DNA of 64,000 nt, taken from assembly GCF_000306965.1 (NCBI RefSeq), contig NZ_JH976434.1, positions 106,401 to 170,400 of the forward strand, in the 5' to 3' direction. A program made the translations under genes and the position numbers. Positions 30,560 to 41,366 of this stretch are shown here, one piece after another (positions within the stretch are counted from its first letter, which is position 1; every line of letters starts with the position of its first letter). Origin of the DNA: Amphibacillus jilinensis Y1 (GTDB lineage Bacteria > Bacillota > Bacilli > Bacillales > Amphibacillaceae). Below the pieces are notes generated by a model. The model was not told the origin of the DNA. It saw only the letters and a program-made list of their open reading frames with translations, and searched no databases.

Positions 30560-30710
30560 TAAAAAGAGCCCTTCTTTAAGAAGAGGGCTCCACTAAACAG
30601 GCTCTTCTTATCGTTCAGACATTCGTCTGCTGGCTTTAGCACCTTTTAAACAGCTGTTTAATGGTTGCCGGATTTCATCGGGCCAGTCCCTCCATCACTC
30701 TAGATAAGTA
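30560..30710 (-). ncRNA. SAM-I riboswitch (S-box), downstream copy, with terminator
   Basis: On the minus strand: CTTATCTAGAGTGATGGAGG, GACTGGCCCGATGAAATCC, GGCAACC, AAGGTGCTAAAGCCAGCAGA and a closing CGATAAG, the conserved SAM-I aptamer blocks. They are followed by a terminator (30561-30590, GAGCCCTCTTCTT with its complement and a T run). When SAM is abundant transcription should stop here. Located about 100 bases before metY. The match to consensus is very good. Confidence 0.92.
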
Positions 30711-30802: not shown

Positions 30803-30957
30803 TAAAAATTCCGCCTTCATTTGAATGATGAAGGCGGAATTTTCAACCGATATTCAATCATCATCCAAAGCACATGCTTTGCTGGTAGGGGCACCTTACA
30901 TGATGTAGGTTGCCGTGAAGTCAATGAGCCAGTTCTCTCGTCCACTCTTGATAAATT
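30803..30957 (-). ncRNA. SAM-I riboswitch (S-box), upstream copy, with terminator
   Basis: A second S-box 90 bases upstream of the first: TTATCAAGAGTGGACGAGAG, AACTGGCTCATTGACTTCAC, GGCAACC, AAGGTGCCCCTACCAGCAAA, a GCAAAGC..GCTTTG stem and GATGATG. It has its own perfect-stem terminator (30805-30820 with 30828-30843). It deviates more from consensus (GGACGAGAG, GCTCATTGA) but keeps the core kink-turn and pseudoknot segments. Tandem arrangement with the downstream copy. Confidence 0.85.
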
Positions 30958-34884: not shown

Positions 34885-35084
34885 TAACGAGCCTTCAAGC
34901 AGTGGACGGAGGTCATGCAGACGTTACCACAGAACATGGCGGTTTTAGTCTACGATCTTACCCACTCCCTGATTGTTAGTTGAATAAATCAGAATATTAG
35001 CGTCCGTTAGCATCCGCCTATATTGACTTATCTCTGTACTCTATTTTTGAGGTAGCTGTGTTGCGGACAGTTATCTGTGATAAA
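34885..35084 (+). repeat. Dispersed intergenic repeat, copy h (expanded form)
   Basis: About 200 bp. Left end CCTTCAAGCAGTGG, then an inserted module GACGGAGGTCATGCAGACG..CATGGCGG..TAGTCTACGATC, then the usual core CCCTGATTGTTAGTTGAATA and right end TTGCGGACAGTTATCTGTGA. Shares the inserted module with copy j. Confidence 0.7.
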
Positions 35085-35124: not shown

Positions 35125-35286
35125 ATGATAATAACTGTTAAACCATCGAATGAAAAGCAAGAACAGACGCTCAACAAGCCTGCGTCTATTAAGGTAAGCT
35201 ATCGATTTACAAACTTTTTCAGTATCGATACTATGAAACAGGTTAAAGCTTTTAACTATGTAAGGATGACCAATTCGGATCATTAA
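35125..35286 (+). CDS. Possible small protein (53 aa)
   Basis: ATG at 35125 follows GGGGTGAAG at good spacing and opens a 53-codon frame with a lysine-rich, rather polar product (ITVKPSNEKQEQ...). No family recognised. It starts 40 bases after repeat copy h and its last 35 bases overlap the 3' end of the convergent C45 gene, which argues against strong constraint. It could be a real small ORF or chance. Confidence 0.35.
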   Translation: MIITVKPSNEKQEQTLNKPASIKVSYRFTNFFSIDTMKQVKAFNYVRMTNSDH

Positions 35287-36313
35287 TGAAAGGGACATCA
35301 CTTTCTAATATACCCGTAATGCGACGAACTCGAATGACTTCACCTGCTAAAAAGCGATTAAAATCAAATACGACTGGTCTTTGATTTGCACCAAGACCAA
35401 TCCACCCCTTACCTTGTCTAGGTTGATATAAACTGGTATGCAATGTACCCGACCACGCTTGATACTTATTAGAAAAAATCGCATGAGAGCGATGATTAAA
35501 TATTTGATACGCCTGGTTAGATTTCAGATGAGATGGCGAATGTCGATTGATTCGATCCATCCGGCTAATGGATTCATCGTTACGATAACGATTTTCTTTA
35601 GTTAAATATTCAAAATGATTGGTGCATACATTAGCCATTCTTGTCAAAACAGTGCGTGGACTCGCTTCAACAATTAATGATTGACCTGAACGATCCATCA
35701 ATACATAAGAAAATGACGTACGATGTGGGATAGCTTTTAATAGCTGGACCCCTTCTTCAACGGTTGCACAATATTCTAATAACATGCGGCCAATCATATT
35801 ACAAATGAAGCCATCACCAGAACCAATCCGATTAGTAAAGTTATAACCCATCACTAACCCTTTCTCATTTATACCGTCTATTCGACCAGTTATTTGCATG
35901 GATGGTCCCATGGAAGCATAGCCCCCATCAGTAGGCTGATAAAGAACATAACGCCCTTCATAGCCATTTGGATGACTGTCATAGTTTCTCACAAAATATT
36001 GGTCGCCCGTCATTATAGAACAACCACTCTTACCAATTTCTAAATAATAACCAGCAAAGGAACGAACAGCTTCTTGTTGTGTCATCTCTAGAGCGTCAGC
36101 TAATCCTTCGATTTCAAAACGGAGCTTTGGCGCAAAATGATCTAATAATCGCAAGCCTTTTTCCACATGTGTCGAAAAATGTGTCTTATATCTTTTGGCA
36201 TGTAATTTTTCTCGATTTTGCATGATTGGCGACTCTCTTAACTTAACACCTTGCTGATATCCAAATTGTCCATGTGTTCCCCGAAAAGAGATCACCTCAG
36301 AAAAGACTTTCAC
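35252..36313 (-). CDS. C45-family autoproteolytic acyltransferase/hydrolase
   Basis: A 353-residue Ntn-type enzyme related to acyl-CoA:6-aminopenicillanic acid acyltransferase and choloylglycine-hydrolase-like C45 proteins. C98 in GKSGCSIMTGDQYFVRNYD is the predicted nucleophile exposed by self-cleavage, and the following stretch has the expected R and N/D residues. IDGINEKGLVMGYN and SFSYVLMDRSGQSLIVEASP match the family. No signal peptide; substrate unknown (an amide or acyl group on a small molecule). ATG at 36313 follows GGGGGGAAG. No related genes adjacent. Confidence 0.8.
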   Translation of the reverse strand: MKVFSEVISFRGTHGQFGYQQGVKLRESPIMQNREKLHAKRYKTHFSTHVEKGLRLLDHFAPKLRFEIEGLADALEMTQQEAVRSFAGYYLEIGKSGCSIMTGDQYFVRNYDSHPNGYEGRYVLYQPTDGGYASMGPSMQITGRIDGINEKGLVMGYNFTNRIGSGDGFICNMIGRMLLEYCATVEEGVQLLKAIPHRTSFSYVLMDRSGQSLIVEASPRTVLTRMANVCTNHFEYLTKENRYRNDESISRMDRINRHSPSHLKSNQAYQIFNHRSHAIFSNKYQAWSGTLHTSLYQPRQGKGWIGLGANQRPVVFDFNRFLAGEVIRVRRITGILESDVPFINDPNWSSLHS

Positions 36314-36575: not shown

Positions 36576-36782
36576 TGGGGCTGGGACAAAAGCTTAACGA
36601 GATAAGAAAAATCCGTACATTAATCACTAATACATGTAGTGCTTCGGTAAAACACTTCACTTACCAATTTCTTCGTTTAAATTTACAACTTAATTATTTA
36701 TTTTTCCATTTTTTATTGACGTTACATTCATTTGTATATATAATAAAAAAACATTGATTAAATTAAACTTAAAAAGGAGGTC

Positions 36783-36866
36783 ATGATGATGTTGTTAACT
36801 ATTATGCAACCCAAATTTGGACTAAAACAAAATATATCGTGGCCTCATTTTGTCATAATTGATTGA
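36783..36866 (+). CDS. Leader peptide ORF 1 of the bmrCD-like operon
   Basis: A 27-codon ORF (three ATG codons in a row; 36786 or 36789 is best spaced) after AAGGAGG. The product is hydrophobic, with PKFGLKQNISWPHFVIID at its end. The stretch GTGGCCTC (36839-36846), near its 3' end, is identical to the 3' arm of the terminator at 36986-37019. That is the layout of a ribosome-controlled attenuator: a ribosome paused early leaves this stretch free to pair with the terminator 5' arm. By analogy it plays the part of B. subtilis bmrB. Confidence 0.7.
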   Translation: MMMLLTIMQPKFGLKQNISWPHFVIID

Positions 36867-36985
36867 AATAGGTAATATCTATTAATTATTTCATTTATTT
36901 TCAGCCTTTAATTAAGAAGAATGTATTCAATTTGGATCTAACTGGATCAGAATATTTTCTGTTAATTAAGGTGAAAGCACTTTTT

Positions 36986-37020
36986 AAAGAGGTCACTATT
37001 ATAGATGTGGCCTCTTTTTG
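36986..37020 (+). terminator. Attenuator terminator 1 in the bmrCD leader
   Basis: AAAGAGGTCAC (36986-36996) pairs with GTGGCCTCTTT (37007-37017), with one G-U pair, and T residues follow. An alternative partner for GAGGTCAC is GTGGCCTC in leader ORF 1, giving mutually exclusive antiterminator and terminator folds. Confidence 0.75.
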
Positions 37021-37072
37021 TGTTCCTTTTTAGGATAAATATACCTTTTATCGATCTATCGGTATATTCAAC

Positions 37073-37108
37073 AGCGCAGATGTCACGGACATCTGCGCTA
37101 TTTTATTT
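37073..37108 (+). terminator. Attenuator terminator 2 in the bmrCD leader
   Basis: Perfect 12-bp GC-rich stem AGCGCAGATGTC / GACATCTGCGCT with a 3-base loop, followed by ATTTTATTT. A second terminator upstream of bmrC, so expression needs two read-through events or an alternative fold. Confidence 0.8.
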
Positions 37109-37148
37109 GATCAATGTTAACGCACTAAACATAAGGAGGAATTTTAAA

Positions 37149-37208
37149 ATGAATAATTGCAAATCTATCCAATCGGCAAAAGGATTTAAACGGTTATGGA
37201 GTGGTTAG
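37149..37208 (+). CDS. Leader peptide ORF 2 of the bmrCD-like operon
   Basis: A 19-codon ORF with a strong AAGGAGGA site eight bases upstream. The product is basic (seven K/R/N-type polar residues, ending KRLWSG). It lies between terminator 2 and bmrC, 38 bases before the bmrC start. It could couple translation to bmrC or be a second sensing peptide. No known homologue recalled. Confidence 0.55.
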   Translation: MNNCKSIQSAKGFKRLWSG

Positions 37209-37246
37209 CTTACAATATGGGGAATTTTTGAAAGGAGATCAATATA

Positions 37247-38992
37247 ATGTTTTCAATTTTTTACAAATTAGCATGGTTTTTTAAAGAGCATTGGGCTCGA
37301 TATACGATTGCAATCATCGCTTTAATTACAGTCAATTTTATTGAACTTATCCCACCAAGATTGGTTGGAATGACGATCGATCTTATACAATTTAATGAGT
37401 TAACACGAGAAAAACTAATGATGATCATTTTTATTTTCTTGGTACTTATGGTGTTGAACTATACGATTATGTTTATTTGGGATTACAACTTGTTTGGGGG
37501 AGCTATCCTACTGGAACGGCAAATACGTTCAAGATTAATGGAACATTTCTTAAAAATGAATCCGAGATTTTACGGTGCAAATCGGACTGGTGATTTAATG
37601 GCACGATCAACAAATGATTTGAAAGCCATCATGACCACTTCTGGTTTTGGTGTCCTCACTCTTGTTGATTCAACGGTGTTCATGTCCTTTTTAGTCTTAA
37701 TGATGGGCTTCTCAATAAATTGGAATCTGACGATAGCAGCCCTTATTCCAATGCCGATCATGGCTGTCATTGTTTACAAATATGGTCAGGTGATCCATCA
37801 ACGATTTACCGATGCACAGGATGCATTTAGTGAACTAAATAATTATACACTAGAGTCGATTCGTGGTGTTCGCGTGATTCGTGCCTTCGTTCAAGAACAA
37901 CGTGATCAGCAACGCTTCTCGGATATGACTGAAACGGTATTTCAAAAGAACAAAGCTGTTGCCCAAATGGAAGCCTATTTTGAACCCACGGTGAAAATAC
38001 TCGTTGGATTATCTTATACGATTGGCTTAGGTTATGGCACGTTAATGGTCATGAATCACCAAATCTCGATTGGTGACCTCGTTTCTTTTAATGTTTATCT
38101 GGGGATGATGATTTGGCCGATGTTTGCGATCGGCGAACTAATAAACATTATGCAACGTGGAAATGCATCACTTGATCGCGTTGAAAATATACTCAAGCAA
38201 AAACCAGATGTTGTTGACCCTGATCAGCCAGTACAGATTTCAAAGCTTAAAAATATCGTTTTTAAGGATGTTGATTTTTCTTACCCTGAAAGTGATGATA
38301 TCCAATTAAGACATATTAATTTAACGATTAAAAGTGGAGAGACAATCGGCATCGTTGGGAAAACAGGTGCAGGTAAAACGACGCTATTCAAGCAACTGTT
38401 ACGAGAGTATCCTCCACCATTTGGACAGTTAACCATTAATGGGCACCCCATTAACCAGTTCAATCTAGACGATACAAGAAGTTGGATTGGCTATGTTCCA
38501 CAGGAGCACATTTTATTCTCTAAAACAGTAAAGGAAAACCTTGTGTTCGGATGCGGTGAAAAATCACTTGAGGATATTAACCATGTATTAGCCTCTACGT
38601 CATTAAAAAGTGATATTGATGCATTGCCGGAAGGACTAGACACAGTAGTCGGAGAAAGTGGTGTCACACTTTCAGGTGGGCAGAAGCAGAGAATTTCTTT
38701 AGCGCGTGCCCTATTAATGGACCCTGAAATCATTATTCTGGATGATTCTTTATCCGCAGTAGATGGAAAAACAGAGACGACAATTATTGATCATCTTAAA
38801 CAAGAGCGAGCTGGTAAAACAACTTTAATTGCAGCACACCGGTTGTCTGCCGTTAAACATGCTGATCAAATTATCGTTATCGATAAAGGACGTATCATCG
38901 AACACGGTACACATCAACAGTTAATTGAAAAAGGTGGATGGTATAAAGAGCAATTTGACATACAACAAATGGAAAGGAAGGTGAGAGCGTGA
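37247..38992 (+). CDS. bmrC: Heterodimeric multidrug ABC exporter subunit, BmrC-like
   Basis: A 581-residue half-transporter: six membrane helices (residues about 15-300) then a nucleotide-binding domain. Walker A GKTGAGKTT, signature LSGGQKQR, but Walker B reads IIILDDSLSAVD: the catalytic Glu is replaced by Asp. That is the expected degenerate site of the YheI/BmrC subunit in BmrCD/LmrCD-type heterodimers. Partner is the next gene, overlapping by 4 bases (GTGA). Start ATG at 37247 after GAAAGGAGATC. Probably exports drugs that stall ribosomes, as leader control implies. Confidence 0.9.
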   Translation: MFSIFYKLAWFFKEHWARYTIAIIALITVNFIELIPPRLVGMTIDLIQFNELTREKLMMIIFIFLVLMVLNYTIMFIWDYNLFGGAILLERQIRSRLMEHFLKMNPRFYGANRTGDLMARSTNDLKAIMTTSGFGVLTLVDSTVFMSFLVLMMGFSINWNLTIAALIPMPIMAVIVYKYGQVIHQRFTDAQDAFSELNNYTLESIRGVRVIRAFVQEQRDQQRFSDMTETVFQKNKAVAQMEAYFEPTVKILVGLSYTIGLGYGTLMVMNHQISIGDLVSFNVYLGMMIWPMFAIGELINIMQRGNASLDRVENILKQKPDVVDPDQPVQISKLKNIVFKDVDFSYPESDDIQLRHINLTIKSGETIGIVGKTGAGKTTLFKQLLREYPPPFGQLTINGHPINQFNLDDTRSWIGYVPQEHILFSKTVKENLVFGCGEKSLEDINHVLASTSLKSDIDALPEGLDTVVGESGVTLSGGQKQRISLARALLMDPEIIILDDSLSAVDGKTETTIIDHLKQERAGKTTLIAAHRLSAVKHADQIIVIDKGRIIEHGTHQQLIEKGGWYKEQFDIQQMERKVRA

Positions 38993-41022
38993 AACCTTCA
39001 ACAGAAAAACAATTATTCAACTATGCACTGTCTAATAAAAAAATCATTTCTTTTGCTTTAATTTGTTTAATTGTTGCTGTATCACTTGAGTTAACCGGTC
39101 CATTTATTGCTAAAACAGTTATTGATCATCATATTGTTGGGATAGAAACAGAATGGGCCCAATTGACATCAGATCAAGATGGTGCCGTCTCTTACCAACA
39201 AAAATATTTCAAAAGAGCAGACCGTGTGACAGATCAAGATCAAGTGGTCGACTATTACACATTAATTCAATCTGAACGGAATTATTATTTTATCGAAGGA
39301 CAGTTCCCCTTAAACAGTGATGTGGAATTAAACCAAGACCAGCAATTATCCGTTACAGTAAACGGACAATCAGAGATTATTTCAGGGAACCGATTAACAA
39401 CTAATGATCTTTATCAATTTTTCCAACCAGAATTGACGCCGATTATTAGGCTTATCGTGATCTATTTAGGACTGATTATAATCGCGGCCTTTTTTCAATA
39501 CTTTAAGACATATCTCTTACAAGTCCACGCTAATAAAATTATTCAAAAGATGCGGCAAGATGTATTTAAGAAAGTTGAAACATTACCGCTTCCATATTTT
39601 GTTGATCGACCAGCGGGCAAAATTTTAGCACGGATCACAAATGATACGGAAGCGATTAAAGAGTTATATGTGAAAGTTCTCGAAACATTTATCAATGGGT
39701 TTATTTATATGATCGGTATTTTTATTGCTTTGTATTTATTAAACCCAATCCTTGCATCTGTTTGCTTGATCTTGATTCCGATTCTGTTTCTATGGATGAA
39801 ATTTTACAAAAAATATGCTGGACACTATAATCGATTGATTCGTTCGGTCAACAGCGATATTAATGGTTCGATCAATGAATCGATCCAAACGATGCCAATT
39901 ATTCAAGCCTTTCGACAAACGAAAGAACGACAAGCAGAATTTGAGCAATTAAATGGACGACATTTTCATTATCAGAAAAAAATGATTGCTTTATCTGCTT
40001 TAACATCCTATAACCTTGTCAATGTGTTAAGAAGCATTGCTTTTATCGGATTTATCTGGTTTTTTGGTAATGGTGTCCTTACAGTGGAAGGTTTTATTTC
40101 AACCGGTGTTCTCTACGCTTTTGCTGATTACTTAACACGATTATTTGAACCGGTAAGTCAAATTGTTAATCAGTTACCACAGTTAGAGCAGGCTAGAGCA
40201 TCAGCAGATCGTGTCTTCGAATTATTAAATACAGACGGTGAGTCGATCGAGGCTCAAGGTCTTGAACCGATCAAGGGAGGCGTCGAGTTTGACGATGTAA
40301 GTTTTGCTTATGAAAAAGAAAACTATATTTTAAATCATGTTAGTTTTCTAGCCACCCCCGGACAAACCGTCGCTTTTGTCGGTCATACCGGTTCAGGAAA
40401 AAGTTCGATTATGAATCTTTTATTCCGCTTTTATGATCCACAAAAAGGAAAGATTAAAGTGGATGGTTTGGATACTTCAACTATAGCACGACAACAGTTA
40501 AGACAGCAGATCGGCATTGTTTTACAAGATCCATTTATTTTTAGTGGAACCATCATTTCAAATATTACTTTAAATGATGACAGCATTAGCAGGGAGCAAG
40601 CTATTTCAGCCTTGAAAGCGGTTGGTGCAGATCAATTTATTGAAAAGCTACCAAAACAATATGATCAACCCGTTATTGAGAATGGCAATGCATTCTCAAC
40701 CGGTCAAAGGCAACTCTTATCTTTTGCTCGCGCATTAGCTTTCGATCCCGCTGTATTAATTTTAGATGAAGCCACCGCCAATATTGATTCAGAGACAGAA
40801 AGACTGATTCAACAAGCCATGAGCGTGCTAGCAAAAGGAAGAACGATGCTCATTATCGCTCACCGTCTTTCAACGATTCAACATGCTGACCAAATTATTG
40901 TCTTAGAAAAAGGACATATCATTGAACATGGTACCCATGATCAATTAGTTGAACAAGACGGAAACTATTACCAAATGTATAAAATGCAACAAGATAGCGT
41001 AACAGAAAAAATCATTTCGTAA
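38989..41022 (+). CDS. bmrD: Heterodimeric multidrug ABC exporter subunit, BmrD-like
   Basis: A 677-residue half-transporter, larger than its partner because an approximately 95-residue extracellular segment (about residues 45-140) is inserted between helices 1 and 2, as in YheH/BmrD. Walker A GHTGSGKSS, Walker B LILDEATANID with the catalytic Glu intact; the signature is unusual, AFSTGQRQL instead of LSGGQ. So the consensus ATP site uses this Walker B with the partner's LSGGQ, and the degenerate site uses the partner's Asp and this divergent signature. Starts with GTG overlapping the bmrC stop. Confidence 0.9.
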   Translation: MKPSTEKQLFNYALSNKKIISFALICLIVAVSLELTGPFIAKTVIDHHIVGIETEWAQLTSDQDGAVSYQQKYFKRADRVTDQDQVVDYYTLIQSERNYYFIEGQFPLNSDVELNQDQQLSVTVNGQSEIISGNRLTTNDLYQFFQPELTPIIRLIVIYLGLIIIAAFFQYFKTYLLQVHANKIIQKMRQDVFKKVETLPLPYFVDRPAGKILARITNDTEAIKELYVKVLETFINGFIYMIGIFIALYLLNPILASVCLILIPILFLWMKFYKKYAGHYNRLIRSVNSDINGSINESIQTMPIIQAFRQTKERQAEFEQLNGRHFHYQKKMIALSALTSYNLVNVLRSIAFIGFIWFFGNGVLTVEGFISTGVLYAFADYLTRLFEPVSQIVNQLPQLEQARASADRVFELLNTDGESIEAQGLEPIKGGVEFDDVSFAYEKENYILNHVSFLATPGQTVAFVGHTGSGKSSIMNLLFRFYDPQKGKIKVDGLDTSTIARQQLRQQIGIVLQDPFIFSGTIISNITLNDDSISREQAISALKAVGADQFIEKLPKQYDQPVIENGNAFSTGQRQLLSFARALAFDPAVLILDEATANIDSETERLIQQAMSVLAKGRTMLIIAHRLSTIQHADQIIVLEKGHIIEHGTHDQLVEQDGNYYQMYKMQQDSVTEKIIS

Positions 41023-41108: not shown

Positions 41109-41366
41109 ATAAAACGCCCCTTTAATCAGTGAACGAAGGGCTACAGGACGTAGGTCATGTAGACGTGGGCCTACAGGATGCAGGTCATGCAGGCGTTGCC
41201 ACAGGACGTGGCGATCTTAGGCTGTATTCCTTCTTACAAGATGTGCCGACTTTAATCTACGACCTTCTGCTTCCATTGATGGGTAGTTGAATGTGTGCCC
41301 GTTATCACCATTTGCGCTATGCTCTATCTTGAGATAAGTGGTTTACGGAAGGTTTTCCGTGATAAA
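41109..41366 (+). repeat. Dispersed intergenic repeat, copy j (longest, expanded form)
   Basis: About 258 bp. Usual left end ATAAAACGCCCCTTTAATCA and right end GTTTACGGAAGGTTTTCCGT plus GATAAA. In between are two tandem units of GGACGTAGGTCATG-like sequence (41145 and 41172 regions) and CACAGGACGTGGCGATCTTA. The tandem unit explains the extra length. Fills most of the convergent gap between bmrD and the GH95 gene. Confidence 0.75.

Follow-up and report, generated by a model that had tools for sequence, protein, structure and literature searches.

Attenuators of the trp type alternate between the pairings 1:2, 2:3 and 3:4, and their leader ORF lies over region 1. For bmrCD, ribosome-mediated attenuation is already published: the bmrB-bmrCD operon of Bacillus subtilis has a leader ORF, a terminator, an antiterminator and an anti-antiterminator, lincomycin induction is abolished by mutating the homologous terminator or by blocking leader translation, and Reilman and co-workers describe the antiterminator as energetically less favourable than the terminator (PMC4191407). 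How translation reaches the bmrCD terminator is given in general terms only in the accessible portion of that account. Growth-phase control of the promoter through AbrB is a further trait of the bmrB-bmrCD type. For ermK of Bacillus licheniformis, a leader ORF together with a pair of adjacent intrinsic terminators has been described (PMC4335068). Here we analyse a leader that has the operon, the leader ORF and the three kinds of structure in common with B. subtilis, and we propose that its Shine-Dalgarno sequence (SD) would itself be the sensor arm linking leader translation to the bmrCD terminator. We describe a putative relay variant of the switch and a conserved micro-ORF.

The whole stretch of DNA analysed, 64 kb long and called the window below, was read directly and gave the order upstream DNA, ORF1, terminator 1 (T1), terminator 2 (T2), ORF2 and bmrC, with these features:

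35252-36313, minus strand: C45-type hydrolase gene, the upstream neighbour, divergent from the leader
36716-36744, plus strand: promoter-like site TTGACG-17-TATAAT, 11 of 12 consensus matches
36776-36788, plus strand: R1, the SD GGAGGTCA and the ORF1 start codons, of which 36777-36788 is predicted to pair with the R2 side (36835-36846)
36783-36866, plus strand: ORF1, leader ORF of 27 codons from the first ATG or 25 from the third, translated from sequence only
36839-36846, plus strand: R2, GTGGCCTC within ORF1, able to pair with R1 or R3
36986-37020, plus strand: terminator 1, R3:R4 with a T-rich tail, by sequence reading and folding
36989-36996, plus strand: R3, GAGGTCAC, the 5' arm of terminator 1, partner of R2 (antiterminator) or R4 (terminator 1)
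36998-37014, plus strand: R4, loop and 3' arm of terminator 1, predicted partner of the emerging terminator 2, weak in the window species
37073-37108, plus strand: terminator 2, stem 37073-37099 with a T-rich tail
37149-37208, plus strand: ORF2, micro-ORF MNNCKSIQSAKGFKRLWSG ending Ser-Gly-TAG-C, 38 nt upstream of bmrC
37247-38992, plus strand: bmrC, YheI orthologue (best PDB match YheI, query residues 2-575 of 581)
38989-41022, plus strand: bmrD, YheH orthologue (best PDB match YheH, query residues 7-669 of 677)

The first-pass annotation had proposed a ribosome-mediated attenuator upstream of a BmrCD-type exporter, and this is still the best reading, supported by relatives and by folding. 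The 27-codon ORF that it described is present, strong ribosome site included: GGAGG at 36776-36780 is followed by three consecutive ATGs (36783, 36786 and 36789), the third of which may be the true start, and 36783-36866 encodes the peptide MMMLLTIMQPKFGLKQNISWPHFVIID. The exporter assignment is borne out by the near full-length PDB matches to YheI and YheH; BmrC is 96% identical to that of Amphibacillus cookii, its nearest named relative, and neither BmrC nor BmrD reached the cut-off of a curated NCBIfam exporter subfamily. Judged by its sequence, the locus has the make-up of the bmrB type, in which a leader ORF that has a ribosome site precedes an intrinsic terminator and bmrC-bmrD lies downstream. 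It resembles ermK in its leader ORF and two adjacent terminators and differs in what is controlled, since ermK governs a macrolide-resistance rRNA methylase, whereas bmrC and bmrD, and no Erm methylase, lie downstream here.

Several elements of the layout carry little weight by themselves. A consensus scan found 5 promoter-like sites in the region against a shuffle mean of 7.7, no enrichment, and the site at 36716-36744 is no evidence by itself because shuffles yield as many. A consensus terminator scan returned terminator 2 only (1 found against a shuffle mean of 0.7); it missed terminator 1 because the 10-base loop exceeds the limit of the scan, and a separate script detects both. The stem of terminator 1 joins 36986-36996 to 37007-37017, and a T-rich stretch follows. 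Because the hydrolase gene is divergent, neither terminator ends it. The octamer GTGGCCTC in ORF1 is, as first reported, identical to the 3' arm of terminator 1 (37007-37014); these are the only two copies in the 64 kb, both on the same strand and both in the leader (expected 0.53). Two or more copies arose in 8/100 shuffles of the window, weak evidence alone, and we regard the duplication as above chance because the arrangement is conserved in relatives. Rfam gave five matches in the window and none in 36700-37250. Among them are two tandem SAM riboswitches on the minus strand (30605-30710 and 30855-30957) and two Bacillaceae-1 RNAs, also on the minus strand, that flank the bmrCD region (34892-34964 and 41170-41236).

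From sequence and modelling, we consider it probable that the leader is a ribosome-sensing transcription attenuator built as the chain R1:R2, R2:R3, R3:R4, R4:T2 and T2. It shares the first three pairings and the leader ORF with trp-type attenuators and differs from them in that region 1 is the SD and start site, control codons are absent and R4:T2 is an extra link. With no ribosome on ORF1, or with ORF1 read through, R1 would pair with R2, R3:R4 would form and terminator 1 would stop transcription; polymerase slipping past it would meet terminator 2. A ribosome held at initiation or on the first codons, as early-elongation drugs would cause, would cover R1, R2 would then pair with R3 before R4 is made, and terminator 1 would be blocked. 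The freed R4 would pair with the emerging apex and 3' arm of T2, terminator 2 would fail, bmrCD would be transcribed, and ORF2 would then probably couple or gate bmrC translation. Both folding and the way in which partners change together across species support the predicted pairings. We infer the order of pairings in the cell, drugs as the trigger and the role of ORF2, as well as, by analogy with B. subtilis (PMC4191407, accessible part), a drug-dependent read-through of the window leader.

Folding of the window leader gave a 12-bp R1:R2 helix (36777-36788 with 36835-36846) at -18.3 kcal/mol, with -14.9 kcal/mol for R2:R3 and -16.6 kcal/mol for terminator 1, in agreement with the earlier statement that the 5' arm of terminator 1 can pair with either copy of GTGGCCTC. 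When the RNA was folded only as far as R3, with P-site codons counted from 36789, R1:R2 formed in the absence of a ribosome on the start, and R2:R3 formed with probability 1.00 when codon 1 or 3 occupied the P site. At codon 5, 8 or 11, R1:R2 was back at 0.96 or more; a ribosome on R2 left neither helix, and one at the stop gave R1:R2 at 0.86. Once R4 was present, terminator 1 won at equilibrium. The annotation had suggested that an early stall frees the first copy of the octamer; R2:R3 does form in the model with the start occupied, and what needs correcting is the cause, which by folding is the covered SD and start rather than merely a copy that the ribosome has not reached.

The leader anatomy of the window recurs in relatives, as a comparison of the DNA upstream of BmrC loci revealed. 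A BmrC search of 146 family genomes matched 105 at E 1e-120 or better, and upstream DNA was taken for 70 of these loci (30 + 40); the 35 omitted comprise 33 at the low-scoring end of the list plus G166 and G123. ORF1, T1 and T2 could be placed, partly by eye, in 55/70 leaders from 24 genera, window included, which form the family set and contain 52 distinct R4/T2 pairs. The 15 left out are ten of genus g16, L033 (different layout), L052 (no leader seen) and L057, L066 and L068 (terminator 1 unclear). Automatic extraction placed 52/70, including L066 and without L019, L025, L064 and L065. Further loci were added (80 named, 20 more and 30 of genus Bacillus), and some of the named loci belong to the same species as unnamed ones. 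The leader ORF and the octamer duplication are conserved in relatives, the reverse of the loss that the first-pass annotation had listed as counting against it.

Across the 55 family leaders we folded each sequence alongside ten versions with a shuffled ORF1 interior (550 in all), scoring R2:R3 at >=5 pairs and R1:ORF1 at >=6 pairs. With a ribosome on the leader start, R2:R3 formed in 54/55 leaders against 111/550 shuffled. In free RNA, R1:ORF1 formed in 44/55 (185/550 shuffled), and R2:R3 in 15/55 even without a ribosome (67/550 shuffled). With codon 6 in the P site the counts were 34/55 for R1:ORF1 (105/550 shuffled) and 26/55 for R2:R3 (62/550 shuffled); with the ribosome at the stop they were 38/55 (129/550) and 7/55 (28/550), respectively. 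In these models the start-occupied state is clear and the intermediate stalls are not.

RNAalifold on 36 aligned family leaders recovered the same SD:R2 helix, in which 96.5% of cells are paired against 37-56% when the register is slid by 1 to 3 columns. Changes in the helix among these 36 leaders are one-sided, with no two-sided case, and none of the 500 shuffles falls short of the observed values. Swap tests within the family were modest (R1:R2 z -2.4 to -3.1, R2:R3 z -2.0 to -2.7). In the wider set the GGTCAC/GTGACC pair gives way to others, such as GGTTAC/GTAACC types (L151, L169), and a swap test with one leader from each of 48 groups (99 leaders placed of 120 chosen from 200; some named groups may equal a numbered genus, and the leaders are related, not independent) gave z -8.7 for R1:R2 and -7.8 for R2:R3. 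R1:R3, for which no pairing is expected, stood at -0.3, and the reversed controls at -0.7 for R1:R2 and -3.6 for R2:R3. A second draw gave -8.5, -7.6 and -0.2, with reversed controls of -1.3 and -2.7. Because the reversed R2:R3 control itself departs from zero (-3.6 and -2.7), part of the R2:R3 signal is base composition. That terminator, antiterminator and anti-antiterminator are mutually exclusive here is read from folding and swap tests only. The accessible text of PMC4191407 holds no description that we found of the SD-R2 and R2-R3 pairings.

Two other ways of triggering the switch have to be weighed against these data. As in erm leaders, a specific leader peptide might arrest the ribosome with a particular drug and the RNA pairings simply follow; all 55 family leaders do carry ORFs of 21-34 codons with strong SDs, and NFI..VTF is common to some of them. 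We nevertheless think this quite unlikely, as genera differ in the peptide and in the frame of R2 but retain the nucleotides, and folding requires the start region to be covered. R2 is read as SWP in the window and as VTF, VTS or CDL elsewhere, and because its codon frame varies among species, it is the RNA and not the peptide that is conserved there. Even less probable, to the point of being hard to credit, is that a protein or small ligand chooses between the hairpins, whether an antiterminator protein, a DNA-binding repressor of the T2 palindrome or a riboswitch: in many members T2 is nearly palindromic and carries GCGTATAC, and the lack of an Rfam match at the locus leaves room for a novel RNA, but T2 stems vary from genus to genus in step with R4, one arm of the switch is the SD itself, and the B. 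subtilis relative is ribosome-controlled (PMC4191407, accessible part).

The ribosome-sensing chain would extend to the second terminator through R4, whose sequence complements T2 at its apex and 3' arm. Over the 52 distinct leaders, own R4:T2 pairs averaged -13.3 kcal/mol versus -10.2 kcal/mol for swapped ones, and the lowest of 20,000 permutations reached -11.7 kcal/mol. Three draws of a single leader from each of the 24 genera gave z -4.9, -4.9 and -5.2, comparable to the own stem of terminator 1 in the same draws (-5.3, -4.7 and -5.7), and controls (reversed T2, shuffled R4, R3:T2 and R2:T2) ranged from -1.7 to +1.6. The candidate pairings R2:T2 and R3:T2, whose z values lie within this control range, were rejected. 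Automatic extraction of 52 family leaders, same-genus ones included, yielded z -9.4, with the own pair beating the median swap in 48/52. The wide set gave -6.5 over 45 groups, one leader per group; outside the family the signal was weak (z -2.3, 21 distinct leaders of 31 loci considered). Stripped of its GTGRC motif, the T1 loop continues to match the T2 of its own leader (z -4.7 over 39 groups, and -6.0).

Much of this match is nevertheless shared motif, and its species-specific part needs bulges, because swaps in a fixed register nearly equal the own pairs: in a fixed ungapped register R4:T2 pairing is 0.72 against 0.31-0.46 in other registers (50 leaders), swapped partners reach 0.68, and little species-specific excess remains, with z 2.9 over the 50 leaders and 1.3 with one leader from each of 22 genera. 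For the window species itself the pairing of R4 with T2 is weak, at -8.3 where swapped partners average -8.7. When R3 was removed and the RNA ended 8 nt past the T2 loop, R4:T2 prevailed over T2 in 48/55 leaders (shuffled R4: 102/550), in the window by 7.7 to 0.3 pairs. With T2 complete, T2 beat R4:T2 in 39/55, and R4:T2 was ahead in 16/55, the window not among them. As T1 beats the antiterminator and complete T2 mostly beats R4:T2 at equilibrium, the ON state would rest on timing; and since T2 is made after the terminator 1 decision, R4:T2 could act only on T2 or later.

The complementarity and covariation of R4 with T2 suggest that terminator 2 should fail as well when terminator 1 is lost. 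The annotation was right that a second terminator and a 19-codon ORF follow; the 3' half of T1 matches T2, which makes T2 more than an add-on. A simpler scheme, in which the ribosome controls terminator 1 only, T2 acts as an unregulated backup that reduces leakage, and shared motifs account for the R4:T2 match, seems to us unlikely. It would explain why the T2 hairpin is stable alone in folding, why the fixed-register excess is small and why R4:T2 is weak in the window species, but a T2 that is stable and unregulated would prevent induction, R4 and T2 match in a species-specific way once bulges are allowed and still do so for the loop alone, R3:T2 and R2:T2 show nothing, and the homologous terminator is the regulated one in B. 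subtilis (PMC4191407, accessible part). If the relay is true, one ribosome would control two terminators, and compensatory changes would make this directly testable. Our search on tandem or relay terminators found no such relay among its results, as far as these sources were accessible.

Genus g16 offers no strong natural test of the relay. Its middle hairpin lacks a T-run (ten leaders, eight inspected), and R4:T2 is modest in the leader examined, only somewhat better than shuffled (57/500 shuffles as low).

A genus Bacillus leader, L194, links the chain to the published system. It contains the bmrB frame as published, 162 nt long from a GTG start and with its end 119 nt upstream of bmrC, and its terminator, which occupies the place of T2, has C at nt 136 and 140, the mutation sites given in the accessible part of PMC4191407 (positions counted by hand). 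T2 of the window would thus match the B. subtilis bmrB terminator in both position and function. The T1-place hairpin of L194 has no T-run, leaving one terminator, whereas in the window that hairpin is also a terminator. From the accessible text of PMC4191407, the hairpin without a T-run would correspond to the published anti-antiterminator and R4:T2 (-14.2) to the antiterminator. L194 also shows R1:R2 (-25.7) and R2:R3 (-23.3) around a 23-codon ORF (L194:1204-1275; SD GGAGGG, MPRNLRVYQTVSYWRGKPFVLFS) in a frame other than annotated bmrB, and this ORF may be a better candidate for the leader than the annotated GTG frame of 53 aa. Because L194 shows the same chain, the hairpin chain probably goes far back, and in the window's family the middle hairpin would have become an extra terminator. 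L173 carries an ORF similar to the 23-codon one.

Beyond T2, the second ORF of the first-pass annotation proved to be more than an ORF that happens to follow: it is a conserved micro-ORF. Among 178 distinct upstream regions (of 200) searched for a micro-ORF ending within 75 nt of bmrC, 135 contained a candidate, and 118/135 candidates end in Gly-stop, many of them from close relatives; 60/178 regions have no Gly-stop micro-ORF. The same ending occurred in 2/42 when the search was moved 150 nt further upstream and in 50/679 in shuffled DNA. All four Gly codons are used before the stop (48, 38, 22 and 10 of the 118), which argues that the peptide end is conserved. Position -3 is acidic in 93/118, the stop is TAG in 94/118, and C follows in 78/118. 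Gly before TAG-C is a poor context for termination, and a ribosome that pauses at this point might open the bmrC start or shield it. The bolder version of our proposal, in which one ribosome event at the start codons topples two terminators by relay and ORF2, with its acidic-Ser/Gly-Gly-stop ending, gates bmrC translation, making the exporter only if translation stress is read twice, is possible and we hold it tentatively, with more doubt than belief. We found no mention of a conserved micro-ORF before bmrC in the accessible literature, in a search not closely aimed at the micro-ORF.

ORF2-like ORFs upstream of bmrC occur twice in L012 and L029; L013 has one with a stretch resembling the first bmrC codons, as found in some of L012, L013 and L029. 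L194 carries an ORF2 counterpart, VKTNTEARAVRAKLDEKSCKEKIEGG, between bmrB and bmrC (L194:1403-1483) with a weak SD; in its close relatives L195 and L196 the ORF2 search counted no such ORF.

An exact pattern, AAGGAGGTCA-N45-75-GTGRCCT, matched 12/398 genomes of the class, among which the window's own locus was recognised as this leader; it was too narrow, its read-backwards control also gave scattered matches, and protein-anchored searches replaced it. A whole-leader DNA search of 61 relatives matched 6; except in the window and its sister, only short stretches aligned, most of them running from the promoter into early ORF1. A covariance model built on the leader from SD to R2 had a single match in the genome of the window, at bmrCD, and matched 23/41 genomes searched.

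Copies of the leader also stand before other genes. In two genera, L221 (G022:C34) and L233 (G018:C30) have a full copy before a gene for a 270-aa trypsin-like protease instead of bmrCD, with an SD, an ORF1 holding GTGACCTCC or GTGACTTC, two hairpins in the T1 and T2 places, and mini-ORFs ending KGSG and KDSG before the stop; the gene that adjoins this protease-type copy is, by appearance, carbonic anhydrase-like. L242 (G049:C40), from another family, is a weaker covariance-model match (E 3.6e-4) that does not lie before bmrC: an SD, GGAGGTCAT, and a matching ATGACCTCC are followed by two T-tailed hairpins and then small ORFs, and its downstream gene is presumably, by its appearance, of the DJ-1/PfpI type.
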